Shown piece after piece: positions 18,070 to 40,000 of a DNA stretch of 41,273 nucleotides. Source of the DNA: a virus. The notes under the pieces were generated by a model that saw only the letters and a list, made by a program, of their open reading frames with translations, had not been told where the DNA came from and did no database searches. The stretch's first letter is position 1, and each line of letters starts with the position of its first letter. The stretch is taken from positions 1 through 41,273 of the IMG/VR virus record IMGVR_UViG_3300002120_000013. One strand, 5' to 3'. Position numbers and translations under genes: made by a program.

Positions 18070-18492
18070 TCACTGCTTGGCCTGCTTCTTGGCCAGTTCG
18101 CCCGCGACATAGTAGACCGTGCTCGTGACGCAGCCGATCTCGCGCGCAATGGCCGGCGGCCGCATGCCCTTAGCCAGCATGGCCAGCATCTTTGCTCGTT
18201 GCTCATCGCTCAACCTGGGGTAGCGTTTGTTTGGGCGGCGCAAGGTTCTTTGATTCGGATAGAAGTAACAAACCCGGGAGATCCAGGTATGCGCGGCCTT
18301 GAGGGAAGCAACCCAGTAAGGTGCTTCAACCAGTAGGCGCGCATACTTGATGTGGATTTCTTCCGGCGGATCGTAGGGGCTGAGCAGGTTTTGTATGATG
18401 CGGAGCCCATCGTACTCTTCCCAGCTCAGGTGCCCGAAGAGCTTGGCGAGCTCATCCCGTCCCTCTCCCAATCCGCCACCACCCCAAGGCAT
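18070..18492 (-). CDS. Helix-turn-helix protein (putative regulator)
   Basis: The product is 140 residues. The C-terminal ~45 residues are a clear helix-turn-helix (LSDEQRAKMLAMLAKGMRPP, AIAREIGCVTSTVYYVAGEL) ending in a basic KKQAKQ tail. The N-terminal half is helical with no recognised domain. It is the last gene of the minus-strand operon and overlaps the preceding zinc-finger-like gene by 67 bases, so the start at 18492 is uncertain. It may regulate the operon or late genes (inference). Confidence 0.6.
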   Translation of the reverse strand: MPWGGGGLGEGRDELAKLFGHLSWEEYDGLRIIQNLLSPYDPPEEIHIKYARLLVEAPYWVASLKAAHTWISRVCYFYPNQRTLRRPNKRYPRLSDEQRAKMLAMLAKGMRPPAIAREIGCVTSTVYYVAGELAKKQAKQ

Positions 18493-18662
18493 TCCGCGCA
18501 GGTAACGAGGTCCAGGTCAAGGTCCCATATCATGATGCAGGTGAGCGAGGCTCCACACAGCACTTCAGCTCCGGCCTCAGTCGAGTGCAGGATATGCGTG
18601 GGGCACCGCTGGCTGGGCCAGGCAGATAACGGTCCCAACTCATGCACCATGAGGTAATTCAT
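18426..18662 (-). CDS. Small Cys-rich (zinc-finger-like) protein
   Basis: The product is 78 residues, starting at ATG 18662 that overlaps the previous stop (ATGA), which fixes the start. The pattern CPTH...VLCGASLTC...VTCAECLG with metal-spaced cysteines and histidines is common in short phage proteins and suggests a zinc knuckle. The final 20 residues overlap the next gene and are low-complexity Ser. Function unknown. Confidence 0.55.
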   Translation of the reverse strand: MNYLMVHELGPLSAWPSQRCPTHILHSTEAGAEVLCGASLTCIMIWDLDLDLVTCAECLGVVADWERDGMSSPSSSGT

Positions 18663-18964
18663 GCTCCGCCATCCAAGTTGCGCGGCAAGAATACCGTCAC
18701 CAAGTAGCCCTGGCCTTCCAGGTGCCTCCGCCTGCTCTGCAGCCAGTCCATCGTGCATGGCCCCGTATACTTGCCAGCCAGCTTCCAGCCCCAGCTGTGC
18801 ACCGGGCCCAGCTTGGGCAAGCTATCCACCTTCTCCAGGCGCGTCGCCTTATCGTGCTTGACCGCGTACAGGACGGTGCGGCGGGACTCACCGTTGCCGT
18901 CGTCATCTTGCCACCGGCGCTCGGCGCGCAGCACCGTCAGGCCATGTTTGCTAATCGTTGCCAT
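18659..18964 (-). CDS. Hypothetical small protein
   Basis: The product is 101 residues: charged and basic with several tryptophans, no membrane segment, no recognised motif (SWGWKLAGKYTGPCTMDWLQ in the middle). ATG 18964 has a purine-rich GGGAGAAAGGG region upstream. It is coupled to the next gene by an ATGA overlap. The operon position behind the methyltransferase is the only clue to role. Confidence 0.55.
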   Translation of the reverse strand: MATISKHGLTVLRAERRWQDDDGNGESRRTVLYAVKHDKATRLEKVDSLPKLGPVHSWGWKLAGKYTGPCTMDWLQSRRRHLEGQGYLVTVFLPRNLDGGA

Positions 18965-19067
18965 GGTTCTTGTCTGCCCTTTCTCCCTGAGAGGCTGAGC
19001 TTTTTTTTCGGGCTTACGAGCCGATTCTTTTTCATTGCTACAGGCATGCGTTCTTCCATGACGGGAT
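18965..19067. other. Gap with T8 run and small stem, minus-strand operon
   Basis: This 103-base gap separates the methyltransferase stop from the next minus-strand gene. It holds T8 at 19001-19008 (A8 in the operon's mRNA) and a 4-bp GGCT/AGCC stem with a TACG loop near 19011. The A-run is on the wrong strand for stopping operon transcription, and the stem is short, so I call no terminator. Confidence 0.35.
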
Positions 19068-20036
19068 TCACTTCACGTCTAACTGGAGCCGGATTTGATC
19101 GTCCAGAGGCGCGGTCTTTGCTCCAGCGATGTTCCGCTTCGCTTGGTTGAAGTAGGTAGGCTTGAGCTCGACTCCGATGCCTTTTCGGCCCATTTGAACG
19201 GCAACGTAGACCGTTGACCCTACGCCCATGAATGGGGTCAGGACGGTTTCACCTGGATTAGACCAAAGCGTCAAGCATCGCTCGATCACGTCGAGAGCGA
19301 GCGGATGGACGTGTTTTTCGTCATCCTCCTCCTTCGCTTCTTTATACGCAAGCGTGCGATCGCGTCGTATATCATCCCAAAAGGCGGAAGCGTACTGTCT
19401 CCATATCCAGTGTGAAAAGCGATTCAGCTTCTGGTCCCCTGCCCAATTGCGGAACGGCAGGATATCGTATGGGATCTCGCGGGTGCCGGCATATTGCGTG
19501 AAGCCGTTGGGATGCGCGATGGGGATCGGATTCACACCCTTCTTGCGGAACATTATGAGGTAATCGGCATGCGCAACGGAACACCGACTCGAGTCATCGA
19601 CTACAGTCTTGTGGGCTAGGTTCTTGGCCATGGTGCGGTTGCGTACACCGAGCGGTTCCTTCCATACGCAGTATCGGCCGACGTAATGGAAGCCAAAGCG
19701 CTCATGGGCGCGGATTACATCACCAGGAAAGTCTACAAGCGTATCGCATCCCGTGTTGCCTGTCGGTACGTCCATGCAATGGACCCCAGTAAGCCGTCCG
19801 GGTAGGGTAATTCGCGCCAGTTCCTTTAACACATAATCGTAATGCTCAAAGAATTCTGCATAACTCCGGCAGTTTGAGAGATCTCTTTCAGACGAGGAGT
19901 AGTGATACAGGCCACCGAAGGGAGGCGAATATATCGACAGGTGGACGCTCCCATCCGGAATGGTCGGCAAGACTTCCATGCAATCCCCAAGATATATGGC
20001 GTAGTGCTCGTTCACTTCTTGGTCGGAAACAGCCAT
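19068..20036 (-). CDS. DNA methyltransferase (beta-class, N4-cytosine/N6-adenine)
   Basis: The 322-residue enzyme transfers a methyl group from S-adenosylmethionine to exocyclic amines of DNA bases. The catalytic motif IV is SPPFG (residues 37-41). The AdoMet motif I comes late (TPFMGVGSTVYVAVQMGRKG, ~267-286), with GIGVEL after it, giving the IV-before-I order of the beta class. SPPF favours N4-cytosine but does not exclude N6-adenine. ATG 20036 overlaps the helicase end by 25 bases with GAGG upstream, so the two are coupled. No restriction nuclease is seen next to it, which suggests self-modification against host restriction (inference). Confidence 0.85.
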   Translation of the reverse strand: MAVSDQEVNEHYAIYLGDCMEVLPTIPDGSVHLSIYSPPFGGLYHYSSSERDLSNCRSYAEFFEHYDYVLKELARITLPGRLTGVHCMDVPTGNTGCDTLVDFPGDVIRAHERFGFHYVGRYCVWKEPLGVRNRTMAKNLAHKTVVDDSSRCSVAHADYLIMFRKKGVNPIPIAHPNGFTQYAGTREIPYDILPFRNWAGDQKLNRFSHWIWRQYASAFWDDIRRDRTLAYKEAKEEDDEKHVHPLALDVIERCLTLWSNPGETVLTPFMGVGSTVYVAVQMGRKGIGVELKPTYFNQAKRNIAGAKTAPLDDQIRLQLDVK

Positions 20037-21418
20037 GCTGGAACCTCTTCTTTTTTGTCGAATCCATCTTTGGTTCTGCCGATCGCCACGGCGTTGTGCA
20101 TTTCGGCGATGAGAGCAGAGAACATGCGATCAGCCTGTTCGGCTTTCCTGCGCAGATTGGCAAGGACTGGACGTTCACCCTTTGTCGAGACCATATCCAC
20201 GAGGACAGGTCGCTTCTGTCCGAATCTCCAGCAACGCCGCACTCCCTGATAGAACTGTTCATAGCTATGAGATGGGAAGAAGGTTACATGCGCACAGTTT
20301 TGCAGATTCAAGCCCCAGGCGCCGATTTTCGGCTTAGTAACGAGGACGCGCAGTTCACCATCGGCGAAGGCGATGAGCCGCTCTTCTTTGACTTCATCCG
20401 GCATCGAACCCCGTATTTGCAACGCATCTGGAATGATCTCAGATAGGAGGTCACCTTCAGCATTCAGATGACACCACACGAGGCATTGCTCCTTGTGGTC
20501 GGCAAGTTGGGCGATCATGTCCGAGCGTTCGCGAAGAGTCCTGCGACGTTCTTCACGCTGTTCAGAGAGCCCGATAGCGGGAAGATCGAATAGCATACCA
20601 TCGCGGGGCTTGACTGCCTCAACCTCATGGTTACATTGGCGCAACGCTGGAAGGGCGAAGCGCCGATCATCGAATCCAAGATCCGACGGTGACCGCAATG
20701 CTCTAGCCCATGAAGCGATCCAGCGCCAGAAGGGCAGTTCAGCGTGCCCTTTGAATCGCCACATGCGTCCCAGTTCTGGTCTATTCCAGCGATAGCGCAC
20801 CATGCGGGCATTGCTTGTACCTTCCTGATTTACGAAGAAACGATGCAGCATATCCATATGCCCGAGTTCGCCGAGCGCCTCGCTGCTAGTGCCCAGTTCC
20901 ATGTAATCATTGGGTGCTGCGGTGGCTGTACACAGCAGACGATATGGGAGTTCTCGCATAAATTCAGTCGTCAGTCTGCGTCGTGCGCCGATGAAATTCT
21001 TCAGGATGCTCGATTCGTCGCAGACCATGCCGGCGAAGATATGGCTTGCGAAGTGATGAAGCTGCTCGTAGTTTGTGGTTACTATCGTCGGATTCGGCGG
21101 GACTGTTCCGTCGCGCGAGCGGTATACTTCCACGCCGAATTTTCCCGCTTCGCGCAGCAGTTGATGTCCGACGGCCAGCGGTGTAGCAATGAGGACATGC
21201 CGATTTGTTTTGCGCACCACATTCTCTGCCCATACGAGCTGCATGGGTGTCTTGCCTAGACCGCAATCGGCGAAGATTGCTGCCTTGCCTTTGCGAAGTG
21301 CCCAGTCCACGAGGTTGCGCTGGAAGTCGTAAAGGAAGTCCGGCATCCATATGGGCTCGAACCCTGCGTATATATCCGATTGTTGCTTGCGTGCCAAGAA
21401 TTCCGCGTAAGTCATCAT
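20012..21418 (-). CDS. SNF2/SF2-type DNA helicase or translocase
   Basis: The 468-residue protein is an ATP-dependent SF2 enzyme. Numbered from ATG 21418, it shows Walker A GLGKT (53-57), motif II DES (134-136, DEAH-box-like), motif III TATAAPND (164-171), and the C-terminal motif VI QGVRRCWRFGQ (391-401). The core is compact with no visible extra domain. I choose 21418 because AGGAGG lies about 10 bases upstream; the frame continues to GTG 21520 but without a better site. It overlaps the methyltransferase. Together they may form a DNA modification or anti-defence pair, or support replication (inference). The base composition looks lower in GC than the flanking genes. Confidence 0.8.
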   Translation of the reverse strand: MMTYAEFLARKQQSDIYAGFEPIWMPDFLYDFQRNLVDWALRKGKAAIFADCGLGKTPMQLVWAENVVRKTNRHVLIATPLAVGHQLLREAGKFGVEVYRSRDGTVPPNPTIVTTNYEQLHHFASHIFAGMVCDESSILKNFIGARRRLTTEFMRELPYRLLCTATAAPNDYMELGTSSEALGELGHMDMLHRFFVNQEGTSNARMVRYRWNRPELGRMWRFKGHAELPFWRWIASWARALRSPSDLGFDDRRFALPALRQCNHEVEAVKPRDGMLFDLPAIGLSEQREERRRTLRERSDMIAQLADHKEQCLVWCHLNAEGDLLSEIIPDALQIRGSMPDEVKEERLIAFADGELRVLVTKPKIGAWGLNLQNCAHVTFFPSHSYEQFYQGVRRCWRFGQKRPVLVDMVSTKGERPVLANLRRKAEQADRMFSALIAEMHNAVAIGRTKDGFDKKEEVPAWLFPTKK

Positions 21419-21523
21419 CGCGCATCTGCCTCCTTCTATCAGCGCCGCCAGCTGACCGGCGCTTGAGGCGGGCGGCTCAGCGTCGCGCCGCATCTCAAGC
21501 GCCTCCAGCTTCTCTCCCACAGT

Positions 21524-21543
21524 ACCACCGTGAGAGCGGTGGT
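21524..21543 (-). promoter_or_regulatory. 7-bp hairpin in the leader of the helicase gene
   Basis: ACCACCG (21524-21530) pairs with CGGTGGT (21537-21543) around a 6-base loop, between the small first gene of the minus operon and the helicase start. There is no U-run after it on the minus strand, so attenuation or mRNA stabilisation is possible, but weakly supported. Confidence 0.35.
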
Positions 21544-21574
21544 TTGTTCCTGCACCGGCGACTCTCCAGTCGGG

Positions 21575-21826
21575 TTATATCTCAGCGTCCGTTTCCATGT
21601 GGCGCCCCCGGCGATAGAGCAGATACAGGGGGCCGGCTGTGCCCAGGGCTAGGATGCCGCAGCGCTCGCACTCGGGGTGCTCGCCGTTCACCCCGGCCAG
21701 GGGGCGATGGTCCCAGTCCTCGATATCGAAGTGCCGCGCACAGAGACTGCGGAAGTTGGGGATGGGCATGCGATCCCACCGGGCCCGAATCGTCAGGGCC
21801 TCATTTTCCAGGGTTAGGTGCGTCAT
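21575..21826 (-). CDS. Small zinc-knuckle-like protein, first gene of the minus operon
   Basis: The product is 83 residues with an ECERCGILALG cysteine pair and an upstream HFDIEDWDHRPLAG segment, a pattern seen in short phage proteins of unknown role. ATG 21826 lies behind a GGCGG-type site and about 50 bases downstream of the divergent promoter. As the first gene expressed leftward it may be an early host-interaction protein (inference). Confidence 0.6.
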   Translation of the reverse strand: MTHLTLENEALTIRARWDRMPIPNFRSLCARHFDIEDWDHRPLAGVNGEHPECERCGILALGTAGPLYLLYRRGRHMETDAEI

Positions 21827-21839
21827 GTGATTTCCGCCT

Positions 21840-21889
21840 TTGCCTTATGGCCAGCCTGGCTGGCCCGGTATATTCTCAACATAAGGCAA
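21840..21889. promoter_or_regulatory. Nested operator-like palindromes in the divergent control region
   Basis: An outer 10-bp inverted repeat, TTGCCTTATG (21840-21849) with CATAAGGCAA (21880-21889), encloses a 17-bp palindrome GGCCAGCC-T-GGCTGGCC (21849-21865). The right arm covers the -10 region of the leftward promoter. The partial copy TGCCTTACG at 22011-22019 lies on the rightward -10. This is what a repressor acting on both promoters would need. Confidence 0.5.
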
Positions 21890-21907
21890 GGCCTAGTAGG
21901 CTGTCAA
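21878..21907 (-). promoter_or_regulatory. Leftward sigma70-type promoter
   Basis: Read on the minus strand: a perfect -35 TTGACA (21907-21902), 18 bases, then TATGTT (21883-21878) as -10, 4 of 6 consensus bases including the key first, second and last. It would drive the methyltransferase/helicase operon from about 21870. Confidence 0.6.
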
Positions 21908-21991
21908 GAGAAAAGCGACATACTGTAAGTCATTGTAATATAAACGGATACAGTGCTTGCCAGGCGAAGCCTCTGGCCATGCAGTTTGTGG

Positions 21992-22021
21992 TTGACACGT
22001 GGGCCTGTTCTGCCTTACGTT
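21992..22021 (+). promoter_or_regulatory. Rightward sigma70-type promoter
   Basis: TTGACA at 21992-21997 is a perfect -35. After 18 bases comes TACGTT (22016-22021), a weak -10 keeping the first, second and last consensus positions. The same spacing and near-identical -10 as the leftward promoter suggest a matched pair. It would drive the XRE regulator gene and the early rightward operon. Confidence 0.55.
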
Positions 22022-22057
22022 ATGTGTAAGCCGGTAGCCCCGGGAACGAGGAGGAGC

Positions 22058-22294
22058 ATGGGCAAGCTGTATGTGAGGGAATGGCGGGAGCGGCGGGTGC
22101 TGACGCAAACCGAGGCAGCACGCCGGGCCGGCTTGGCTTTGAACACGTGGAACCGGATCGAGCGCGGGCATACAGGCCGCCCCCATGGCCTCACCCTGCA
22201 GGCCATCGCCTACGTTGTGGGCGCCGTGGGGGGGCCTGTGGACCTGCTCGCACCGCCGCCGGGGCCACGAGGAGGAAAGAGAAATGGGAAGTGA
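22058..22294 (+). CDS. XRE/Cro-type helix-turn-helix regulator
   Basis: The product is 78 residues. ATG 22058 is chosen because GAGGAGGAG lies directly upstream; the open frame further left has no site. Residues ~13-37 form the XRE HTH (LTQTEAARRAGLALNTWNRI, then ERG), the DNA-reading unit of Cro/CI-like proteins. Lying just downstream of the divergent promoters with operator-like palindromes, it probably controls both operons. No integrase or second repressor is seen, so it need not mean lysogeny. It overlaps the next gene by 11 bases. Confidence 0.8.
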   Translation: MGKLYVREWRERRVLTQTEAARRAGLALNTWNRIERGHTGRPHGLTLQAIAYVVGAVGGPVDLLAPPPGPRGGKRNGK

Positions 22295-23399
22295 TGAACG
22301 GTTGCCAGTGGTGCATGAGCCTGTAGGCGAGGCGGTGGAGAGCCAAGCGCTGGTGCCGATTCAACCTGCTGCGCCGGCTTTGCTAGCTGAGCCTGACCGA
22401 TACCAAGGCATCGCCAGCAAGGCCTTCTCGGCCAAGCAGCAAAGGCTGCTCTTGGCCCCCACAGCACCAGAGATGGTGGAGTTCAAACCGAGCGCGCGCG
22501 GTGGGCCACCACGCATCGGCTCCGTGCCGCAGGTCGAGTACCGGCGGCGCCTGACGGAGACCTTTGGGTCTGGGGGTTGGGCATTGCGGCCGGGCAGCAA
22601 GCCGCAAGTGATCGGGACACGCGTGGTGTTCCATGGCTTGCTCTATGCCGAGGGGCGCTACTTGGCGGAAGCCTGGGGAGGGGCTGAGTACTACCCTAAC
22701 AACCCAGCCATGGGGTGGGACGATGCCCTCGAGTCGGCGCGGAGCGATGCGCTCAAGCGCTGCTGCAAGGATCTCGCCATGTTCAGCGAGCTTTGGGAAC
22801 CGGGCTGGTGTGACCAAGTGCTACACGAGCGTCCTGAGGCTCAAAAGGCCTCGGTGCGCAAGTTCCAGGCTTCGGTGGCACAGCTCGACCAAGAGGTGCT
22901 GCACTTCGTGCAGGCGCTCCTCGAGGGACGCTTGCCAGATGGTCGGCCGGTGTTCGAGGCAGCGAGGGTGCACACCTTGCGCACCAACCTGGAGAAGTTG
23001 CCCCAGGAGCCTGATGCGGCGCATGGTCTCTTGACTGGTGCACGTAAGCTGATGGCGCAATGGGATGAGCGCACCAAGGGGCTGGCGTACCCGCTACCCG
23101 TGCCTGCAGCTTTGCAACCACCAACCCCGCCGGCCAGCGCAGCGCCTGCGGCGCCAGCTGTGTCGCCAGCCAATCCTGCACCAGCGGGCGTGCCCGGTAC
23201 GGCGGAGCAGCAACGCGATTTGCGGCGGCTGTTCGCACTCAAGGACCTGAAAACAGGCAAGCGCCTGTTGACGGCCGAGGAGATCGTACAGACGACCGAG
23301 ACGCTGACAGCAGCTGGCAACACGCAGGAAGCCTACGCGGGGGCACTCAAGACGTTGCAGGGGCTCGTAGATGAGCGCCTGCGCGGTAGCTGGAGCTGA
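22284..23399 (+). CDS. Rad52/Mgm101-like single-strand annealing protein
   Basis: The 371-residue product resembles the Rad52/Mgm101 group of phage recombinases that anneal complementary single strands. ATG 22284 follows GGAGGAAAGAGAA; the longer upstream frame overlaps the regulator. The core (residues ~65-175) has YRRRLTETFGSGGWALRP, a VVFHGLLYAEGRYLAEAWGG beta-hairpin, and ALESARSDALKRCCKDLAMF, the family order. Residues ~275-310 are a Pro/Ala linker (PTPPASAAPAAPAVSP) leading to a helical C-terminus (LRRLFALKDLK) that may bind a partner such as host SSB or helicase (inference). It serves replication and recombination in the early operon. Confidence 0.75.
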   Translation: MGSDERLPVVHEPVGEAVESQALVPIQPAAPALLAEPDRYQGIASKAFSAKQQRLLLAPTAPEMVEFKPSARGGPPRIGSVPQVEYRRRLTETFGSGGWALRPGSKPQVIGTRVVFHGLLYAEGRYLAEAWGGAEYYPNNPAMGWDDALESARSDALKRCCKDLAMFSELWEPGWCDQVLHERPEAQKASVRKFQASVAQLDQEVLHFVQALLEGRLPDGRPVFEAARVHTLRTNLEKLPQEPDAAHGLLTGARKLMAQWDERTKGLAYPLPVPAALQPPTPPASAAPAAPAVSPANPAPAGVPGTAEQQRDLRRLFALKDLKTGKRLLTAEEIVQTTETLTAAGNTQEAYAGALKTLQGLVDERLRGSWS

Positions 23400-23400
23400 A

Positions 23401-23575
23401 GCGGTGCGGCAAGACAGCGTCCACGCCAGGTATCCGGGTGAAGGTTGGGCTGGGGTGCAAGCCTGACTGCCACGACGCTTGAGCCGCACCGCCTTATGAG
23501 TGGCGCACGGTGGCTAGTAGCCGGGGTCTTGCTGAGGTAACAGGACACGGGAAACGGCGACCGCTACCGTGCGCC
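23401..23575 (+). ncRNA. Structured non-coding RNA region (two long stems)
   Basis: The 197 bases after the annealing-protein gene hold two consecutive strong hairpins. Stem A: 23401-23410 with 23483-23492, perfect 10 bp, and an inner 6 bp, 23416-23421 with 23474-23479. Stem B: 23502-23514 with 23563-23575, 13 bp with one G-U. No plausible start/ribosome site fits inside. This could be an untranslated regulatory RNA, a long-leader switch for the next gene, or a replication structure. No tRNA, ribozyme or riboswitch consensus fits cleanly. Confidence 0.5.
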
Positions 23576-23596
23576 CAAGAATGCGAGAGGGCGAAC

Positions 23597-23959
23597 TTGA
23601 AACAACGATCCGGGAAAGAAGCGGGGGATGGTGTCGGGTACCCATTCTATGATGGCTTGCCACCACACCAGAAGCCGGAGACTTCTCTCGAGGCGGCCGC
23701 GCTAATCCTGCCATCGGCTCTAAGCCTGCGCGACAAGGTTTACGAATACTTACAGGCCTGCGGATCGCGCGGAGCGACTGACAGGGAAATCGAGGCGGCG
23801 CTGCATATGCTGGGATCGACCGTGAGGCCTAGGCGGCGCGAGTTGGAGATGGCAGGTAGGATCGAGCTCGCACGTGGACTGAAACGGCTAACCCCGAATG
23901 GGAGATGGGCAAGGGTCTGGAGAGTCAAACAAGAGCAGCTGAAGCTTGGGGAGTGGTGA
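23597..23959 (+). CDS. Small winged-helix DNA-binding protein
   Basis: The product is 120 residues. No ATG is available downstream of the RNA stems; TTG 23597 has GAGAGG about 6 bases upstream and begins right after stem B, so I use it. An earlier ATG-frame would run through the hairpins. Residues ~40-115 look like a winged helix (LRDKVYEYLQACGSRGATDR, then EIEAALHMLGSTVRPRRREL and a wing RWARVWRV). It probably binds DNA, but its target is unknown. Confidence 0.6.
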   Translation: MKQRSGKEAGDGVGYPFYDGLPPHQKPETSLEAAALILPSALSLRDKVYEYLQACGSRGATDREIEAALHMLGSTVRPRRRELEMAGRIELARGLKRLTPNGRWARVWRVKQEQLKLGEW

Positions 23960-23961
23960 CT

Positions 23962-24606
23962 ATGGCGACGTTGCAGGACACGGTATCAGCGATCCAGGGC
24001 GTGCTGGCGGTGGTGGCCGAACAAGAGGGCGAGCTGACGGACGACCTGGACCGTGAGCTGACGCAGCTCGAGGCGGACCTGGGGCAGAGATTGCGCGCCT
24101 GTGCGCGGGCCCGCGAACGCCTGGCGGCTGAGGTGCGCGAGGCCAGCTACTGGGTGGAGCGCCTGGTTACGCGGCTCAAACGGGCGCAGCGGCAACTGGA
24201 TGGCCTGGAAGCCTACATGATCGCCAATATGCTGCGGGCCGAGGTGCGGGAGTTCGAGACAACACGCCATGGTGATGCCGTGCTGGCCGAAGTGCGGCTG
24301 CTCCTGACGAAGTGCAAGCAGGATGCCTTGACCAAGCCGCTGACGAGCGCCGACCTGCTGGACACGGTGCAGCGGGCGCTCGAGGTGCTGGGCTCCGATG
24401 GCTTCCCGCCTGTCAGCGTGCGGGCGCGCCAGAACCCGGGGCGCACAGTGGTGCCGCCCGAGGCGCTGGCGGAGCTACCGGGTACGTGCTTTGTGCCGCA
24501 GGGGCCGAAGCTAGACCTGCGGATGGTGCGCGAGTTACTGGAGGCTGGGGCAGAGCTGCCGCCGGGTGTGACGGTGCAGCGTGACTGGCGGCTGGAGGTG
24601 CGATGA
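23962..24606 (+). CDS. Gp157-like coiled-coil protein (siphovirus Gp157 family)
   Basis: The product is 214 residues. ATG 23962 has GGGGAG 8 bases upstream; the two GTG codons just before it are less well placed. It is a long charged coiled coil (residues ~25-95) followed by a small domain ending in VTVQRDWRLEV. The build matches siphovirus Gp157-type proteins, which sit next to phage recombinases and are thought in some phages to resist host nucleases. It lies two genes after the annealing protein. Its stop overlaps the next ATG (ATGA). Confidence 0.65.
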   Translation: MATLQDTVSAIQGVLAVVAEQEGELTDDLDRELTQLEADLGQRLRACARARERLAAEVREASYWVERLVTRLKRAQRQLDGLEAYMIANMLRAEVREFETTRHGDAVLAEVRLLLTKCKQDALTKPLTSADLLDTVQRALEVLGSDGFPPVSVRARQNPGRTVVPPEALAELPGTCFVPQGPKLDLRMVRELLEAGAELPPGVTVQRDWRLEVR

Positions 24607-24899
24607 GCGCTGACGTTTGCCCAAAGTGCAGCGGCACGCATCTGGTGGTGAGTTGGTTACCTGATAGTGCAAGGCAAGGCGAGCCACCGGGCCGGGTCAA
24701 ATGTTTGCGATGTGGCTATACCTGGCGCCGTCCATGGGCGCCGATTCCAGGAGTGGGGGACGATGGGCAAGATGGATCCCTACCAGCCCAGGGCGGGCGA
24801 GCTGGTGGTGACGCGCAACTGGGGCCCGGCGCTCGTGTGCCAAGTGTTGGACCAGACTTACATGTTGCTCGTCGCAGACGCCGATACCGGCGAGTGTAG
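24603..24899 (+). CDS. Zinc-ribbon protein, possibly shortened by overlap
   Basis: ATG 24603 overlaps the preceding stop. The first ~45 residues are a zinc ribbon (CPKCSGTH and KCLRCGYTW). Beyond residue ~53 the frame runs 137 bases into the next gene and becomes Gly/Arg-rich with a poly-Arg tail, unlike real protein. The functional part is probably only the ribbon; the C-terminal run may be tolerated read-through, or mark a frameshift fusing the ribbon to the next protein. Confidence 0.5.
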   Translation: MSADVCPKCSGTHLVVSWLPDSARQGEPPGRVKCLRCGYTWRRPWAPIPGVGDDGQDGSLPAQGGRAGGDAQLGPGARVPSVGPDLHVARRRRRYRRV

Positions 24900-25008
24900 C
24901 TTCGTCATCGCTGTGCAGAGCATGGCGCTGGCGCCACTGCCGACGCACATTCCGCCGCGCCTGCTGGAGGCGCGCGAAGCACTCTTTGGAACACACAAGA
25001 AAGGCTAG
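24763..25008 (+). CDS. Hypothetical small protein
   Basis: The product is 81 residues. ATG 24763 has GGAGTGGGGG upstream. The sequence resembles a small beta-barrel (GELVVTRNWGPALVCQVLDQ, TYMLLVADADTGECSFVIAV) with a helical end. SH3-like barrels of this sort are common in phage accessory proteins. Function not recognised. It lies 3 bases before the DUF5675 gene. Confidence 0.6.
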   Translation: MGKMDPYQPRAGELVVTRNWGPALVCQVLDQTYMLLVADADTGECSFVIAVQSMALAPLPTHIPPRLLEAREALFGTHKKG

Positions 25009-25011
25009 GGC

Positions 25012-25470
25012 ATGGAGCTAGTTCTGATCCGTCACACGCTTACGCCCTGGGCGACCATGGGCAGCCTGTACATCGCTGCCGAGTTCCAGTGCTTCACGCT
25101 CGAGGATCCCGACCGGCTTGCTGTGGGTCTTCCGAAAATTGCGGGCGAGACGGCGATTCCTGCGGGACGATATCGCGTGGTTACCACATGGTCGCCAAAG
25201 TTCAAGCGCCCGCTACCGCTGCTGCTGGAGGTGCCCGACTTCAGCGGCGTACGCATCCACCCGGGCAACATACCCCGCGATACGGCAGGCTGCATCTTGC
25301 CTGGCTACGTGCTCAAGCGCGACGCCCTGGTGCCAGGTAGCAGCCTGCCGGCCTTCCGGGACTTGGCGAAACGCATCGTAGAGGGCGAGAAGGCCGGCGA
25401 GGTGTGGCTGCTTCTGGTGGATCAGCTCGACGCCGACATGGTGGAGCGGCTGCGCGCGGAGTGGGCATGA
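25012..25470 (+). CDS. DUF5675-family protein, peptidoglycan-active candidate
   Basis: The 152-residue protein fits DUF5675. The chain shows FQCFTLEDPDR, GETAIPAGRYRVVTTWSPKF, GVRIHPGNIPRDTAGCILPG, with His, Asn, Thr and Gly-Cys at the family's conserved places. These resemble an L,D-transpeptidase-type active site in spacing, so a cell-wall role such as lysis is possible, but not proven. No signal peptide or membrane segment. It is the best lysis-enzyme candidate in the genome, since no muramidase or amidase motif is seen elsewhere. Its stop overlaps the next ATG. Confidence 0.65.
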   Translation: MELVLIRHTLTPWATMGSLYIAAEFQCFTLEDPDRLAVGLPKIAGETAIPAGRYRVVTTWSPKFKRPLPLLLEVPDFSGVRIHPGNIPRDTAGCILPGYVLKRDALVPGSSLPAFRDLAKRIVEGEKAGEVWLLLVDQLDADMVERLRAEWA

Positions 25471-25727
25471 TGTCAGGGCGTGTGGTGCGGCGGTACCGTC
25501 TCTACCGCAACTCCCGGATCGACTTGTACTGGTGGCAGAACTGGCGGGTGCATGTGCAGCGCATCTGGTCGCAGCCTTTCGCCAGTCCGATGCCGCCGAT
25601 TCATCCGGGGGTCACGCTCCTGGGCATGGCGCCCATGGGGGAGATCGAGGCGGTGCGCTTGCGGTACTGGCGGCTGCGTCTGGGCTGGCTGGAAGTGCAC
25701 GTCCGGCCTAGGGCATCACGTGCTTGA
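25467..25727 (+). CDS. Hypothetical basic small protein
   Basis: The product is 86 residues. ATG 25467 overlaps the previous stop (ATGA). The protein is rich in Arg, Trp and Tyr (YRNSRIDLYWWQNWRVHVQR) with no membrane helix. It may be nucleic-acid or wall-associated; I recognise no family. It is the last gene before a hairpin-bearing gap. Confidence 0.55.
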   Translation: MMSGRVVRRYRLYRNSRIDLYWWQNWRVHVQRIWSQPFASPMPPIHPGVTLLGMAPMGEIEAVRLRYWRLRLGWLEVHVRPRASRA

Positions 25728-25779
25728 ACGGTGGGCCAGGGAGAGCGTAGGGTGAGCTGGCGAGGGGATCAAAGAAGCA

Positions 25780-25804
25780 GGGCCGGTTTGATGAGAACCG
25801 GCCC
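25780..25804 (+). terminator. GC-rich hairpin after the early gene block (possible weak terminator)
   Basis: GGGCCGGTT (25780-25788) pairs with AACCGGCCC (25796-25804) around a 7-base loop. It follows the small basic gene and precedes the initiator gene. Only a purine-rich CAGATT follows, no U-run, so intrinsic termination would be weak. Confidence 0.4.
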
Positions 25805-25810
25805 CAGATT

Positions 25811-25836
25811 AAACCCTCCGCAAGGCATGGAGGTTT
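25811..25836 (+). promoter_or_regulatory. Hairpin hiding the ribosome site of the initiator gene
   Basis: AAACCCTCC (25811-25819) pairs with GGAGGTTT (25829-25836), one C bulged, around a 9-base loop. The GGAGG is the ribosome site of ATG 25843. A self-closed ribosome site would dampen initiator translation (inference). Confidence 0.45.
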
Positions 25837-25842
25837 CCAGCG

Positions 25843-26364
25843 ATGCAAGCCTATCGCAACCCCCCGCTCGGTGCAAGCCCCAACGGTACCCCGGCGGGCT
25901 ACCTACCGCCCGAGGGTTGGGCCTACCTGCCACATGTCGGCGCCAGGGCGCTGCTCCTGTACCAGCAGCTCCGCGGGCTGTACTGCTGGCACAACGGCAA
26001 GACCGGGGCGACTTGCTGCCGCTGGGAAGCCAGCCTAGAGGCCATGGCGGAACGCGTAGGCCTGCCAGTCAGGAGCTTGAAATGGTACCTAGCGCGGTTG
26101 ATTCGTTCCGGGTTACTGGCGGTTGAGCCACGAGGAGGACGCCGGCGAGATGGCAGCCTGTACCGGATGGTGAACAGCTACAGGCTGGAGATGTTCGCAG
26201 GGAAACAGGCAAGAACTTGCCCCATACCCGTGGAGGTGCCGACTGTGGATAACTTGCCAGCCGAGGGGCAAGAACTTGCCCCATTCCCTGATGTTCGGGG
26301 AAACGGGCAAGAACTTGCCTGTATCTCTGAATCCGGAGGATCGGATTCTGAGACTCTTTCCTAG
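25843..26364 (+). CDS. Replication initiator candidate, winged-helix type
   Basis: The product is 173 residues. A central winged-helix segment (ASLEAMAERVGLPVRSLKWY, LARLIRSGLLAVEPRGG) resembles phage replication initiators of the DnaD/lambda-O style. The N-terminus has the ALLLYQQLRGLYCW helix common before such domains. The last third is encoded by the GGCAAG-AA-CTTGCC repeats, giving GQELAPFP, GNGQELACI and ARTCPIP. A gene carrying its own iterons is the lambda-O arrangement. Therefore this is the likely origin-binding protein, with host helicase and polymerase doing the rest (inference; no polymerase or helicase loader recognised). Confidence 0.6.
   Translation: MQAYRNPPLGASPNGTPAGYLPPEGWAYLPHVGARALLLYQQLRGLYCWHNGKTGATCCRWEASLEAMAERVGLPVRSLKWYLARLIRSGLLAVEPRGGRRRDGSLYRMVNSYRLEMFAGKQARTCPIPVEVPTVDNLPAEGQELAPFPDVRGNGQELACISESGGSDSETLS
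26208..26319. repeat. Iteron cluster inside the initiator gene (candidate replication origin)
   Basis: The 14-base palindromic site GGCAAGAACTTGCC occurs at 26208-26221, 26267-26280 and 26306-26319. The middle copy extends to 8-base arms (26265-26282). A half-site AACTTGCC lies at 26251-26258. Around copies 1 and 3 the flanks also match (ATGTTCG...GGGAAAC...). A somewhat AT-richer stretch follows at 26320-26400. Repeats in the initiator gene are typical of phage origins. Confidence 0.6.
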
Positions 26365-26377
26365 GCTTGGTATTCAG

Positions 26378-27076
26378 ATGGTAAACGACCCTACCTACAA
26401 GCTGGGTTCGGTGCAGAACGAAGACCCCCCTTCCCCCCATCCGGAAACTTCGCCCACGGAGGCGCCCGACATGCGCGAGGCCATGGCCGTTTCAGAGCCG
26501 AGACCCAGCCAGACCCACACCAAGCCACAGCCCTGGGTGCCTGAAACCCCGCTCCCTCGCGTAGAGATCCCGGGGGCGTTCGGCGCGGTCGTGGCAGCTG
26601 CTATGCGAGATGCCGCTGCCCGCATGCAGGCCACGCCAACGCCCCCGGAAGAGCCACCCAGCGCCAACGGCCGCCTAGCGGTGCACCTGCACGGCAAGAT
26701 CCGCACTAGGCTCCTTGCCCTAGGTTGCCCAGAGGCCGAGATGCCCAGGGAGGCTACCCTGGCGCTCCTGTCCACGCGTCTGGCCGAGGCGAACGTTGAC
26801 CAAGTCCTCGAGGGCACCCAGGCCTACCTGGACAAGCGGCGGGCGGACCGCGGCAAGCTCGAGCCCCATGCCGTCTGCCAGGTGTTCCTGGGCGTCGTGG
26901 CTCACATGGAGCGCCTGGGACGAATCCCCGCAACGGGCATCCCCTGGCGACGCAAAGGCCCTGCCGGCCCGCCCCCCTCGGTGCCTGGCAGCAACGGGGG
27001 AATCGCTCGGGCGGCGGCAGGGCCCCACAAGACACCTGGAAGGAGTCAAAATGCCTATGCTCTGGAGAATCCGTGA
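26378..27076 (+). CDS. Hypothetical protein after the initiator gene
   Basis: From ATG 26378 the product is 232 residues; the start is uncertain. No ribosome site precedes that ATG, whereas GGAGG at 26335-26339 would suit an ATT/CTG start near 26345-26348, and the frame is open to ATG 26276 inside the initiator gene. The N-terminal ~70 residues are Pro/Thr-rich and disordered-looking. A helical core (ATLALLSTRLAEANVDQVLE, VCQVFLGVVAHMERLG) follows and a Gly/Ala-rich tail. Helicase loaders often occupy this place; I cannot confirm that here. Confidence 0.55.
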   Translation: MVNDPTYKLGSVQNEDPPSPHPETSPTEAPDMREAMAVSEPRPSQTHTKPQPWVPETPLPRVEIPGAFGAVVAAAMRDAAARMQATPTPPEEPPSANGRLAVHLHGKIRTRLLALGCPEAEMPREATLALLSTRLAEANVDQVLEGTQAYLDKRRADRGKLEPHAVCQVFLGVVAHMERLGRIPATGIPWRRKGPAGPPPSVPGSNGGIARAAAGPHKTPGRSQNAYALENP

Positions 27077-27338
27077 GTACCGCCTGAAGAGGCTGCGCAA
27101 GGGCGCGTGTGCGCCTGGGAGACTCGATACGGCATGGGTCCTGGAGGCCTGCAGAGTAGGGTATTCAGGGGTTCCCAAGCCTTGGCAAGGGGTAAAGTAC
27201 TTCCTCCTCGAAAAAGACGCGCAGGCAGCCCTAGGGCGCCTGGCGCCACTTATCCCGGCCCTCGCGGGCGAGCCCAGCGGGGCAAGCACCAACGCACAGG
27301 GGCATGCGGTCGAGGAGGTGCAGCGTGGGAAGCGGTAA
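27051..27338 (+). CDS. Hypothetical small basic protein
   Basis: The product is 95 residues. ATG 27051 has AAGGAG just upstream and overlaps the previous gene by 26 bases. It begins with a basic helix (WRIREYRLKRLRKG). A short alpha/beta region follows (AWVLEACRVGYSGVPKPWQG). No recognised family. Confidence 0.5.
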   Translation: MPMLWRIREYRLKRLRKGACAPGRLDTAWVLEACRVGYSGVPKPWQGVKYFLLEKDAQAALGRLAPLIPALAGEPSGASTNAQGHAVEEVQRGKR

Positions 27339-27516
27339 GGGCAGCATACCAAGGCGAACCGGCGTGCGTCGGGAGTCCATCTTCCTGTACGAAAGGCTGG
27401 ACAAGCAGGGCGATTTCGCCTGGATTGCCTCTCTTCGGGCACAGAAACGGCGGCATCTTTGGCGCAAGAACGACCACCACGACTACACGAGACGGCGCAG
27501 AAACCTATGGCCATGA
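27325..27516 (+). CDS. Hypothetical small basic protein
   Basis: The product is 63 residues. GTG 27325 sits 6 bases after GAGGAGG and overlaps the previous gene by 14 bases. Highly basic, with a QGDFAWIASLRAQKRRH core. It is probably nucleic-acid binding, family unknown. Confidence 0.45.
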   Translation: MGSGKGSIPRRTGVRRESIFLYERLDKQGDFAWIASLRAQKRRHLWRKNDHHDYTRRRRNLWP

Positions 27517-27695
27517 GCCAGCTACACATCACCTGGGGCCCAAGTGAATGGCGGCGCCGGCGGCTTGTCCGCTGGCGGTTCTGTTCGCACTGCCGCAAGT
27601 GGCGTAGGCATCGCCTGGTGTGGGGGTATCAGGACTGGTACGACCCGATGCCGCGCGCGGAATGCTTGCGGTGTGGGCACCGGCGAGCGTGGTGA
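27513..27695 (+). CDS. Zinc-ribbon small protein
   Basis: The product is 60 residues. ATG 27513 overlaps the previous stop (ATGA), preferred to ATG 27507. Two cysteine pairs (CSHCRKW and CLRCGH), Arg- and Trp-rich, indicate a zinc ribbon. Role unknown; possibly nucleic-acid binding. Confidence 0.5.
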   Translation: MSQLHITWGPSEWRRRRLVRWRFCSHCRKWRRHRLVWGYQDWYDPMPRAECLRCGHRRAW

Positions 27696-27822
27696 ATCTG
27701 CGCTTGACTTGGCTGCCACGGATGCGGCACATAGGCGCCAGCATGGGCTTGGGCGGGTTGCCTTGCATCTGGAGCCGGAGGGCTAAGGGTTACCGCTCGC
27801 AAGGACCCGCCCATGCATAGGG

Positions 27823-27879
27823 GCCGGCGCGGTTCTTGATACCCTGTGTCCAGGCAAGCGCGATCTGGACCGCGCCGGC
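27823..27879 (+). promoter_or_regulatory. Strong hairpin in a 200-base non-coding gap upstream of the terminase block
   Basis: GCCGGCGCGGT (27823-27833) pairs perfectly with ACCGCGCCGGC (27869-27879), two further base pairs inside, ahead of an AAGGAG site for the gene at 27896. The rest of the gap 27696-27895 has no convincing gene; TTGACT at 27704-27710 lacks a good -10. It may be a leader structure or part of a packaging site, given that terS follows 400 bases later (inference). Confidence 0.4.
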
Positions 27880-27895
27880 TGAGCAAGGAGTCCCG

Positions 27896-28126
27896 ATGAT
27901 CCAAGACACCATCAGCAATGATCCCGAGGGGCGGCGCACAGTTGTCGAGATTCTTGTGGGGGACAGCGCCAACGGGTTAGCGAAAGCGGTTAATGAGGCT
28001 CTAGGAGAGGGTTTGGACATCCTCCCAAACACTTACCATGTGGTCAACCTAGGCACCGAGCTTGTGCACTTTGTATGGCTGGTCCGTTACGTGGAGTGGG
28101 AACAAGATGCCGAACCGCCCCGATAG
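27896..28126 (+). CDS. Hypothetical small protein
   Basis: The product is 76 residues. ATG 27896 with AAGGAG 5 bases upstream. A compact alpha/beta chain (RRTVVEILVGDSANGLAKAV; VVNLGTELVHFVWLVRYVEW). No known family recognised. It overlaps the next gene by 20 bases. Confidence 0.55.
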   Translation: MIQDTISNDPEGRRTVVEILVGDSANGLAKAVNEALGEGLDILPNTYHVVNLGTELVHFVWLVRYVEWEQDAEPPR

Positions 28127-28295
28127 GCCGCGCATCCTTACACCGCGCGAGCACAAGTGCCCCGAGTGCGACGAGTTGTGCACCTGCATGCGCGGCAACC
28201 ACTGGGGCGAGCAGAACTGCGAATGCGACTGCACGGACCAGCTACATACCGATCCAGGCTACGAGGGCCACCACGACAACCCCTACACGGAGTAG
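28107..28295 (+). CDS. Small Cys-rich protein
   Basis: The product is 62 residues, starting at ATG 28107. Dense cysteines (KCPECDELCTC, NCECDC) and His suggest one or two metal sites. Acidic C-terminus. It lies 3 bases before terS. Function unknown. Confidence 0.5.
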   Translation: MPNRPDRPRILTPREHKCPECDELCTCMRGNHWGEQNCECDCTDQLHTDPGYEGHHDNPYTE

Positions 28296-28298
28296 CCC

Positions 28299-28883
28299 GT
28301 GCCGCGCCAAAGGAAGAAGAAGCCCACCGCTGACGACCCAGCGCTCCGCCGCTCGTACCTGGAGACCTACGCGGCGCGCGATGTGCGCAAGCGCCTCTCT
28401 CGCCTCAACCGCTCGCTTGGCATTCGGCAGGAGACCGTTGACCGCTGGTTGAGCGATCCCGACTTTGTGTCCGAGCTCCGGCGCATCGACGAGCGCCGCA
28501 TGGAGTCGGCCTTGATGGCGGCCACGACGCTTTGGCCGCGTATCCTCGAGGAGCAGGCAGCCATCGCTGCCGGCCAGCTCGAGGAGCTGCCCGACATGAC
28601 CGATTGCACGCCCGCGCAAGTCCAGTTCCTGCGCCAGTCCTACGTGGCCCGTGCCGCCAAGCGCGTCGTCATGAGCACGCGCGCCGCTGAGCTTGTGGCC
28701 AAGGTCATTGGCGCCATCAAGCCGCAGCCTTACGTGCAGCTCTACACCGAGAACGTCGAGCGCTTCGGCGGGCTGCCCACCGACCCCGAGGAGCTGGTCA
28801 AGGAGAACGACCGCATGGACGAGGTGCTGCGCCGTGCGCGCGAGCGGTACGCCAAGAAACAGCCGGAAACGACAACGCAATGA
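28299..28883 (+). CDS. Terminase small subunit candidate
   Basis: The product is 194 residues starting with GTG 28299. The N-terminus is basic (PRQRKKKPTADDP), and the first third contains a helix-turn-helix-like region (LNRSLGIRQETVDRWLSDPD) typical of TerS DNA recognition. Helices for oligomerisation (VAKVIGAIKPQPYVQLYTEN onward) follow. It is 1.1 kb upstream of terL in the same direction. TerS families diverge strongly, so the call rests on the HTH, size and position. The ending overlaps the next gene (ATGA). Confidence 0.6.
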   Translation: MPRQRKKKPTADDPALRRSYLETYAARDVRKRLSRLNRSLGIRQETVDRWLSDPDFVSELRRIDERRMESALMAATTLWPRILEEQAAIAAGQLEELPDMTDCTPAQVQFLRQSYVARAAKRVVMSTRAAELVAKVIGAIKPQPYVQLYTENVERFGGLPTDPEELVKENDRMDEVLRRARERYAKKQPETTTQ

Positions 28884-29245
28884 GTACACCGGTTCCACAG
28901 ATAGATCCCGTATCCTCTTTCTTGTATTGCCCACGTTGCGGAAACGATTGGGGCTGCTGTTTACACCACGGACGCGTTACTATCATAAATCGCATCCAAG
29001 AGGATGGGGATGGCTGGAAGATCACAGTTATAGGCGGTTTGTCAAAATGCGAGCGCGTATCCTCTGAGGAGATTGATGGACGCCGCGATGTGATGTATAT
29101 TGAGTTCCGTTGCGAAAACTGTTCAGGGTCGAGCCTAGAGCCAACTTGCAAGCTGCGAATCATGCAGCACAAGGGGGCAACGTACTTAGAATGGCAACTT
29201 CTGGAGTTGCCTGCATTGCAACAGGAAGACGAAGTGCCGCAATGA
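28880..29245 (+). CDS. Zinc-binding hypothetical protein
   Basis: The product is 121 residues, ATG 28880 overlapping terS. Two cysteine pairs (YCPRCGNDWGCC and RCENCSG) frame a beta-rich core (ITVIGGLSKCERV). Its DNA looks more AT-rich than its neighbours, so it may be a later insertion between the terminase genes. Function not recognised. Confidence 0.55.
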   Translation: MSTPVPQIDPVSSFLYCPRCGNDWGCCLHHGRVTIINRIQEDGDGWKITVIGGLSKCERVSSEEIDGRRDVMYIEFRCENCSGSSLEPTCKLRIMQHKGATYLEWQLLELPALQQEDEVPQ

Positions 29246-29424
29246 TCCCACAGCTGGGCATGACACTTACTGGGAAGGTCGTCCACGCCATGAAACCGGG
29301 CTGGGGCGGCCGAACCTATTGCGGCGTCAGAATCGTCGACATTCCTGGAGAGAGCCATGCCTCGAGCCAAGCCGAATTGTCTGCGGTATCTCTACGGGAT
29401 GGCGTGGTCGTCAATGCCGCATAG
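29242..29424 (+). CDS. Small hypothetical protein
   Basis: The product is 60 residues, coupled by ATGA to the previous gene. TGKVVHAMKPGWGGRTYCGV is a short beta-type segment. A second frame with a better ribosome site overlaps it (29357-29500), so only one of the two may be used. Confidence 0.4.
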   Translation: MIPQLGMTLTGKVVHAMKPGWGGRTYCGVRIVDIPGESHASSQAELSAVSLRDGVVVNAA

Positions 29425-29500
29425 CCAGCCAAGGGCAAGCACTGCATGGAGGAGTTGGGTGCGGGATGCGGGCAAACGCTACGCCAGGCGGCAACCATGA
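29357..29500 (+). CDS. Alternative overlapping small ORF
   Basis: ATG 29357 lies directly after GGAGAGAGCC and gives 47 basic residues (AKPNCLRYLYG; WRSWVRDAGKRYARRQ), ending at a TGA that overlaps ATG 29497 of the next frame. The ribosome site and coupling favour it; its length and overlap with the 29242 gene weaken it. Confidence 0.3.
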   Translation: MPRAKPNCLRYLYGMAWSSMPHSQPRASTAWRSWVRDAGKRYARRQP

Positions 29501-29808
29501 TAGCCAGCGCGCAACAAGTCTTTCTGCAGCTGCTCGACAAACGGCCCAGCATGACCCTGGACCAGTGGCTGTTGCTTGGAGTCGTAGTCTCCGCGGGGCT
29601 CATTGCCCTGGTTGGGATTGCCTGGTCCCGCCAGCATGAGCGTTGGCAGCGCGAGACCGAATTAGAGCTCAAGAGCCTAAGCCGCTTGGTGGAGTTCATC
29701 GAGATGGAGTGCAGAGCACTCAAGAACGCCATGCTGCACCAGGGCATCATGCCGGGCATGCGGTTTACGCCGCGCAACAAGACCGAGGACAAGAAGGAGC
29801 ACTGCTGA
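29446..29808 (+). CDS. Single-pass membrane protein with coiled coil
   Basis: The product is 120 residues from ATG 29446 (103 from ATG 29497, which has AGGCGG upstream). One membrane helix (LLLGVVVSAGLIALVGIAWS) is followed by a charged coiled coil (WQRETELELKSLSRLVEFIE). The layout is that of the membrane protein at 17321, but without sequence likeness. It could be lysis-related or a host-membrane protein; no family match. Confidence 0.5.
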   Translation: MEELGAGCGQTLRQAATMIASAQQVFLQLLDKRPSMTLDQWLLLGVVVSAGLIALVGIAWSRQHERWQRETELELKSLSRLVEFIEMECRALKNAMLHQGIMPGMRFTPRNKTEDKKEHC

Positions 29809-30023
29809 TGTATGCCGGCCCCGAACAGCTCCGCCAATGCCCGAAGTGCCAGAGTCGGCAGGTCAACGTGACATATCATGTGGACTTAAGATGTGAATGC
29901 CCACCACCCGCCAGAGAGGCTGGCACATTACCGGAACATCTTGCCATCCGCTGTGAGTGTGGTTACCGCTGGGCACGCGCTACTCTTGACAGTTCTGGCA
30001 CATGGCAGAAATCATCCCCATAG
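29808..30023 (+). CDS. Zinc-ribbon small protein before terL
   Basis: The product is 71 residues. ATG 29808 shares a base with the previous stop and has AAGGAG upstream. CPKCQS, RCECPPP and RCECGYRW give two metal-binding pairs. It overlaps terL by 22 bases. Function unknown. Confidence 0.5.
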   Translation: MYAGPEQLRQCPKCQSRQVNVTYHVDLRCECPPPAREAGTLPEHLAIRCECGYRWARATLDSSGTWQKSSP

Positions 30024-31573
30024 ACGACTTCCGCACTGCAGCCATGCAAGAGTACGATACGCTGCGCCGGCGTGGGCGCATGCATCGCTACGCGATCTCC
30101 GAGCTGGCACAAGCCGATGTGAACGTCTTCGCCGAGCACTGTTTCGCCATTCATCAACAGCCTATCCACGTGCGGTGGCACGAGGAATGTGACGCGCATC
30201 CGTTCCTGGTCTTTTGGTCTCCGCCCGAGCATGGCAAGACCTTCCAGCTAGGCTTTGTGCGCCTCATGTGGGAACTCGGCAACTATCCCACACGCAGCTT
30301 TGCGCACCTTGGATCCGGCCCGGATATCCCCGAAGCGAGCCTGCAGCAGGTTGCACAACACATCGTCAAGAACGACCGCGTGCGTGAGGTCTTCCCCAGC
30401 CTGCGCGTGGCGCGTGTGGGCCGCACCCCCACGCACATCTTCGGCATCTGGATCGAGCGCCCCGCAGGGCACATTGACCGCGACCCGACAGTGATCGCTA
30501 CCGGCATTCTCAAACAGATCGTGGGCCGGCGCCTCGATGGCGTGTTGCTTGACGACATACACGACACGGACAACACCTACACGCGTGCAGCGCGCGAGAA
30601 GGTCAAGCAGCGCATAGACGATGAGGTTCTATCCCGCGTCAGTGCTGAGGGTTGGATCCGGTCCATTGGCCACCCATGGACGAAGGACGACGCAGGCCAC
30701 TGGCTAGCGGCGAAGGAAGGCTGGCAACACAGGCGCTACGATGTGGAGTGCGACCTGGAAGGGCGGCCGGGGCCGCCAGCGGCGTTGTGGCCCGAGGCTT
30801 GGCGCGACCCGCGCAGCGGTGTGCTACGCGGCTGGCCCTGGGAGCGCATACAGGCCAAGAAGGCCTCGACCGACCACCTAACTTGGTGGCGCATGTGGAA
30901 GTGCCGGACGCCCCAGGAAGAGATGGAGCTTTTCCCGCTGTCGCTCATCCGGCGCGCCCTCGAGCGCGGCAAGGGCTTGCAGCTTGCGCGTCCCTGTCCA
31001 GAAGGCCAGCTCGCGGCCAGTGGTATCGACCTGGCCACTGGCGATGGCCATGACCTGACCGTCATCACAACGGGCTACATGGCTGGCGGGGTACGCCACG
31101 TGCTCGATATACGCGGCGGCCTGTGGGACGATGCCAAGATGTACCACGAGCTGCGCGAGCTGGTGCGGCTGTATCCCCGTCATGGAGGGTTCCTGATCGA
31201 GGACAATGGCATGCAGAGACTGGTCGTCCGCACGCTCAGGCGCGCGGAAGTCATGCGTGCCTATGGCTGGACGGACGAGGACTTGAACCGCACACGTGTA
31301 CTAGGGTTCACGACGACCGCCAAGCGCAAGATCGACCCGCACCTGGGCATCAAGAGCCTGGTGCTGGACCTCCAGACAGACCAGCTGGCTCTGCCCAGCG
31401 ATGAGAGGGCCCATGCTTGGCGCCAGGTCGATCAGCTGGTCCAGGGCATGCAAGCCTATGACCCGAACGAGCCGACAAAGCACACGAGCGACTACCTGAT
31501 GAGTTACTGGCTGGCCTGCGAGATGATGCGCCGACTGGGTCAGGAGGGCGCGAAACGCCTTGGCCTCAGTTGA
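30002..31573 (+). CDS. terL: Terminase large subunit
   Basis: The 523-residue motor-nuclease packages DNA. The ATPase half has a deviant Walker A SPPEHGKT (73-80) and Walker B GVLLDDIHD (D184/D185). The nuclease half has three acidic residues in the RNase H-like arrangement: D343 in GIDLATGDG, D401 in FLIEDNGMQ and D497 in HTSDYLMSY. It is full length for the family. It lies after terS and overlaps a zinc-ribbon gene. The portal is unusually far away (~5.8 kb), with an accessory cassette between. Confidence 0.9.
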   Translation: MAEIIPIDDFRTAAMQEYDTLRRRGRMHRYAISELAQADVNVFAEHCFAIHQQPIHVRWHEECDAHPFLVFWSPPEHGKTFQLGFVRLMWELGNYPTRSFAHLGSGPDIPEASLQQVAQHIVKNDRVREVFPSLRVARVGRTPTHIFGIWIERPAGHIDRDPTVIATGILKQIVGRRLDGVLLDDIHDTDNTYTRAAREKVKQRIDDEVLSRVSAEGWIRSIGHPWTKDDAGHWLAAKEGWQHRRYDVECDLEGRPGPPAALWPEAWRDPRSGVLRGWPWERIQAKKASTDHLTWWRMWKCRTPQEEMELFPLSLIRRALERGKGLQLARPCPEGQLAASGIDLATGDGHDLTVITTGYMAGGVRHVLDIRGGLWDDAKMYHELRELVRLYPRHGGFLIEDNGMQRLVVRTLRRAEVMRAYGWTDEDLNRTRVLGFTTTAKRKIDPHLGIKSLVLDLQTDQLALPSDERAHAWRQVDQLVQGMQAYDPNEPTKHTSDYLMSYWLACEMMRRLGQEGAKRLGLS

Positions 31574-31707
31574 GGATATGCAGTAGGGTGCCCCGCATGT
31601 GGTCGGTCGTCGTCGTCCTGACTGCTGCCACATTGGCCTGTATGTTGCCGATGCTCTGGCATGGTGCCGCGAGGGGTGGGAGTGTGAGGAGACAGGAGGA
31701 GGCAGCC

Positions 31708-31923
31708 ATGCGAACCTGCAAGCGCTGCAGCCGGCCCCAGGGCGAGCCGCCGCGCGTGCTCAATCACAAGCAAGCCTTGGTGCTCTTGCTCTGCACGTGC
31801 CACTACGACGAGGCCCGCGCAGTAGACCTGCTCTTGCTGCAGGTCGTCGGCAACCCCATCCATCGCGGATGCGATTCTCCCGAGTGCAGGCTCTGCAAAG
31901 AGGACTTGCGCTATGTCACATGA
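31708..31923 (+). CDS. Small Cys-rich protein (start ambiguous)
   Basis: From ATG 31708, behind AGGAGGAGG, the product is 71 residues with CKRCSRP, CTCHYDE and CDSPECRLC, metal-binding spacing. The frame is also open upstream to ATG 31597 (AGGGTG site), which would add a hydrophobic, signal-like N-terminus (VVVVLTAATLACMLPMLW). The stronger site favours the short form; both may be used. It opens the accessory cassette. Function unknown. Confidence 0.5.
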   Translation: MRTCKRCSRPQGEPPRVLNHKQALVLLLCTCHYDEARAVDLLLLQVVGNPIHRGCDSPECRLCKEDLRYVT

Positions 31924-32800: not shown

Positions 32801-32807
32801 GGGCGAT

Positions 32808-33131: not shown

Positions 33132-33140
33132 GAGGTTAGG

Positions 33141-34510: not shown

Positions 34511-34519
34511 AGGGATGGC

Positions 34520-34918: not shown

Positions 34919-34931
34919 AGAAGGAGGAGCC

Positions 34932-35144: not shown

Positions 35145-35148
35145 GGTT

Positions 35149-35392: not shown

Positions 35393-35394
35393 GG

Positions 35395-37073: not shown

Positions 37074-37093
37074 CGTAGAGAAGGGAATGAGCC

Positions 37094-39993: not shown

Positions 39994-40000
39994 GTTCAGG

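Follow-up and report, generated by a model that had tools for sequence, protein, structure and literature searches.

The gene for a single-strand annealing protein in the viral record IMGVR_UViG_3300002120_000013 is followed by a gap that holds two hairpins, and this raises the question of whether the gap encodes an RNA of its own, forms part of the message of the surrounding genes, acts as DNA, or folds by chance. The window, i.e. the whole stretch of DNA analysed, comprises 41,273 bases. Its ends overlap by 84 bases (98.8% identity), and matches to known families identify genes for a terminase, a portal and a tail tube, which indicates that the window probably represents the whole circular genome of an uncultivated tailed phage. 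The hairpin gap sits within a run of plus-strand genes, and both flanking genes lie on the same strand. A minus-strand gene island (methyltransferase-like, helicase-like) occupies 18070-21826, and the rest of the genome is plus-strand. Between the terminase and portal genes, 33572-34510 matches PF06537 (di-haem oxidoreductase/peroxidase, E 4.5e-16) and is possibly a host-derived metabolic gene, as judged by this match. The features of the two hairpin gaps are listed in Table 1.

Table 1. Coordinates of the two hairpin gaps, their hairpins and neighbouring genes in the window.
Feature	Position	Strand	Basis or detail
Window (IMGVR_UViG_3300002120_000013)	41,273 bases		IMG/VR record
Upstream gene, Mgm101/Rad52-type single-strand annealing protein	22185..23399	+	PF06420, MGM101 9yi6, codon score
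First gap, non-coding, with both hairpins (197 nt)	23400..23596	+	Stops in + frames, codon scores, fold z -2.8
Hairpin H1	23401..23492	+	10-bp perfect outer stem, nested 6-bp stem, inner three-way junction
Hairpin H2	23502..23575	+	13-bp stem with one G-U, inner stem-loops
Ribosome-binding-like purine-rich GAGAGGG and spacer ahead of TTG 23597	23585..23596	+	Sequence
Downstream gene, phrog_1123	23597..23959	+	phrog_1123, E 1.2e-10
gp157/Gam-like gene	23962-24606	+	Family match
Second gap, same paired-hairpin architecture (200 nt)	27696..27895	+	Architecture scan, fold
Hairpin H1'	27750..27813	+	10 bp with one G-U, nested 6-bp CCTTGC/GCAAGG
Hairpin H2'	27823..27879	+	13 bp with one G-U, 16 nt before ATG 27896

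The upstream gene was identified by its matches to Pfam family PF06420 (E 2e-27) and to MGM101 in the PDB (9yi6, E 3e-19). Position 22185 is uncertain as its start, and the true start may be further downstream; its stop codon occupies 23397-23399, in agreement with the location after an annealing-protein gene given in a preliminary description of this DNA. The same description had reported a gene-free stretch of 197 bases, and this length is exact. The gap (65% G+C) contains stop codons in all three plus-strand frames, and codon scores within it are negative or close to zero, versus about 0.2-0.4 in most clear genes. A coding gene spanning both stems was ruled out by these scores. A coding ORF over the stems had been named as a point to check, and the in-frame GTG at 23510, from which a frame would run across stem 2, was rejected as a start because the extended frame has a non-coding score (-0.18). 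Four gaps in the window that appear low in coding signal, each of about 555 nt, were also compared and are not homologous.

The TTG start that had been placed just after the second stem is a plausible start of the downstream gene, and the GAGAGG ahead of it has an unpaired probability of about 0.6-0.9. The downstream gene has a codon score of 0.005 and atypical codon usage, and its product, read by eye, appears winged-helix-like. Further downstream, the small protein encoded at 24603-24899 shows a weak match, under the cut-off, to a TFIIS/transcription-factor-S zinc ribbon.

Both stems proposed for the gap were borne out. The perfect 10-bp stem of H1 is formed by 23401-23410 and 23483-23492 and its nested 6-bp stem by 23416-23421 and 23474-23479, and the 13-bp stem of H2 is formed by 23502-23514 and 23563-23575, with its single G-U pair at 23512-23565. 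H1 begins 1 nt after the stop codon, the linker between the hairpins is 9 nt, and H2 ends 21 nt before the start codon. When folded in a 400-nt context, the outer stems of H1 and H2 have pair probabilities of 0.89-1.00. The minimum free energy of the gap is -91.0 kcal/mol (z -2.8), with 8 of 1000 shuffles as good, and the z values of the elements are -3.0 and -3.5. Stems like stem 1 arose in 1.6% of shuffles of the gap and stems like stem 2 in 0.15%, and both together in none of 4000 dinucleotide shuffles. Both stems are genuine and far exceed what chance would give. They are broken by internal loops (10+6 base pairs, and 13 plus the inner base pairs), and the energy of the whole gap is less extreme than that of the stems, several other sites in the window scoring lower in a 110-nt scan. 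As inverted repeats fold on either strand, the minus strand folds about equally significantly (z -3.0), and therefore fold energy alone cannot assign the strand. The plus-strand fold includes six G-U pairs, which are weaker on the other strand.

A scan of the plus strand of the window for the architecture of this pair (a 10-bp hairpin, a 9-nt linker, a 13-bp hairpin with one G-U pair, then 16-21 nt and a start codon) returned exactly two loci, the first pair and 27750-27879. The second pair has the same linker length as the first, and its gap is flanked upstream by a small ORF of zinc-finger-like type (27513-27695) and downstream by one that starts at ATG 27896. The architecture was present in none of 160 whole-window shuffles, and was seen once in 1,186 kb (1.19 Mb) of other contigs, which had been chance matches of a too-short search pattern and differ from the window in base composition. 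That single match, in contig L026, is an array of AAACGGAAT repeats and was discarded as unrelated. The second pair is one extra match where few or none are expected, its significance being partly post hoc because the first pair had served to define the criterion. Taken whole, the second gap folds only modestly better than its shuffles (z -0.9 to -1.0). No sequence similarity was found when the two gaps and their pairs were compared. A shape common to both pairs without a common sequence argues for recognition of shape rather than sequence, and points to a structure-read RNA element, which might serve in RNase III-type processing, stabilisation or the uncoupling of adjacent genes.

Rfam 15 gave no match at the gathering cut-off in the whole window, nothing for the first gap even at E up to 10, and only chance-level mir-H3 matches for the second gap. 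The view of the first gap as structured, non-coding and resembling no known family therefore stands, given the confirmed stems and the low codon scores. The further suggestion of a new phage RNA was not supported in the sense of a discrete transcript. A scan for promoter-like sites, covering the sigma-70-like type, found none in 21900-26500 and none at either hairpin gap, and no U-tract terminator-like site was found by scan at the first gap. Thus, a discrete non-coding RNA is unsupported, and the stop-to-start layout is instead the one expected of an intercistronic mRNA element. A better fit is a stretch of operon mRNA that folds between two cistrons, and a separate non-coding RNA or a site acting as DNA is less probable.

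We give about an even chance to the paired hairpins being cis-acting intercistronic folds of a phage operon mRNA, with RNase III-type cutting and/or stabilisation as their likeliest use. This reading follows from the position between stop and start codons, the strand agreement, the absence of promoter-like and terminator-like sites, and the repetition of shape without sequence. Transcription would read through from the annealing-protein gene into the first gap, where H1 and then H2 would fold once the last ribosome has left the stop codon. One hairpin would then shield the 3' end of the upstream message, and another would closely precede the ribosome-binding site of the downstream message. RNase III-type cutting and/or stabilisation would most likely separate the expression of the two neighbouring genes; the same architecture would be used by the phage at the second junction. 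The mechanism is modelled on what is known of phage messages, in particular the T7 early region; transcription through the gap, processing by RNase III or otherwise and any influence on the genes on either side are likewise inferred. The interrupted stems, which are not ideal long RNase III duplexes, count against it, as do the comparably significant minus-strand folds and the modest z of the second gap.

RNase III processing sites are double-stranded stems of roughly two helical turns in which irregular pairing is allowed. Those of phage T7 are irregular hairpins in early intergenic gaps, several per genome, and are recognised by shape. The hairpins described here likewise lie between phage genes that would be co-transcribed, shortly before the next ribosome-binding site, but there are two per gap, with large internal loops, and RNase III cleavage would here be assumed by analogy. 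Intercistronic stabilising hairpins of bacterial mRNAs are REP/BIME-like. The first pair resembles them in being a palindromic structure immediately after a stop codon, and differs in that its sequence is not repeated, the first gap being present as one copy in the record.

A trans-acting small RNA, transcribed from the gap or cut out of it, is unlikely. The first gap is compact, strongly folded and non-coding, with a suitable length of about 197 nt, and by eye a TTGACT lies about 18 nt ahead of CACATA at 27705-27734, before the second pair; against this, the scan found a promoter-like match at neither gap, there is no intrinsic terminator, and the first pair fits flush between stop and start codons. 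We regard it as equally doubtful that the annealing-protein gene ends in a terminator or attenuator lacking a U-tract, a reading for which the strong hairpin immediately 3' of the stop codon and a long hairpin after a gene in another gap (1459-1507) would speak. Intrinsic (Rho-independent) terminators are compact G+C-rich hairpins followed by a run of U, whereas the arms here enclose 48-72 nt, far more than in such terminators, no U-tract follows, and the first gap has no terminator-like site. Readthrough would moreover be needed, since the genes that follow lack a promoter-like site.

It is similarly improbable that the pairs represent a new class of phage RNA, defined by shape (about 10 bp, a 9-nt linker, 13 bp, gaps of about 200 nt between genes, at least two in each genome) and recognised by a factor of phage or host, such as a novel kind of signal for processing or for antitermination on nascent RNA. 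Slightly less probable is an antitermination or RNA-polymerase-modifying site like put of phage HK022, at which a hairpin pair makes the polymerase read through later terminators. The put sites lie near early promoters, in two copies similar in sequence, with a linker of about 1 nt. Two adjacent stem-loops in what would be phage operon RNA, at two loci along a long operon and on its coding strand, recall this arrangement, but both pairs here are mid-operon and share no sequence, their stems are longer, their linker is 9 nt, and Rfam gave no match. The put-like reading is a rival on the mode of action, and the pairs fall short of put membership in sharing no sequence.

A DNA-level element (cruciform, replication origin, recombination or packaging site) is highly unlikely: the inverted repeats fold on either strand and the adjoining gene encodes a recombination protein, but the two copies are alike in shape and not in sequence, the six G-U pairs of the plus-strand fold are weaker on the other strand, and the three exact palindromes at 26208-26319 make a better candidate for an origin. 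Chance secondary structure is just as implausible, because the 65% G+C of the spacer, a whole-gap z of about -2.8 that is not extreme, and lower scores in some other phage windows are set against both stems in 0 of 4000 shuffles and two pairs in the window versus none in 160 window shuffles.

If the repetition of shape is functional, this phage repeats an RNA architecture at operon junctions without repeating a sequence, and such elements would escape Rfam and sequence-similarity searches. If the folds serve ordinary mRNA processing, their recognition aids the annotation of an otherwise unclassified phage.

Relatives were sought with the gap, its two neighbour genes and the phage core genes as queries, and no homologous gap was found in DNA and protein searches of phages and plasmids or in eight viral-contig and two genome-contig scans. 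The one close relative found, IMGVR_UViG_3300025174_000101 (97% identity), extends over 26208-41273 and the beginning of the window, so that 23.4 kb lies outside its coverage; the second gap is identical in it and thus yields no covariation. In distant Mgm101 relatives (26-34% identity) the next gene may start at -20 to +59 nt, which leaves no comparable gap; one of them, L132, ends too early for its next start to be judged. The single-sequence models R1 and R2, which reach near copies only, had no match in the distant Mgm101 loci or the records searched, and a hit in contig L126 was dismissed as chance.

Divergence from the close relative is limited to patches (32250-33500, 35750-37250, and from 39750 over the ends to 500), with near identity elsewhere, the mark of mosaic recombination. 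Relative L121 carries about 380 extra bases at window position 37073-37076 (L121 10872-11249), apparently a small gene missing from the window.

Other structured sites were noted in the window. The palindrome GGCAAGAACTTGCC is present in three exact copies starting at 26208, 26267 and 26306, within the 3' part of a gene (25843-26364) weakly matching replication-initiation proteins, and the related contig breaks off at 26208. In phage lambda, the origin iterons lie inside the initiator gene O, and the palindromes look like an origin with iterons inside an initiator gene or, alternatively, a set of operators. The hairpin at 1459-1507, a perfect 13-bp stem in a 101-nt gap (1422-1522; z -2.9 to -3.2), is identical in relative L122. 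A 12-bp stem with one G-U pair is present at 21838-21891, in the gap (21827-22057) that separates the minus-strand block from the plus-strand operon.
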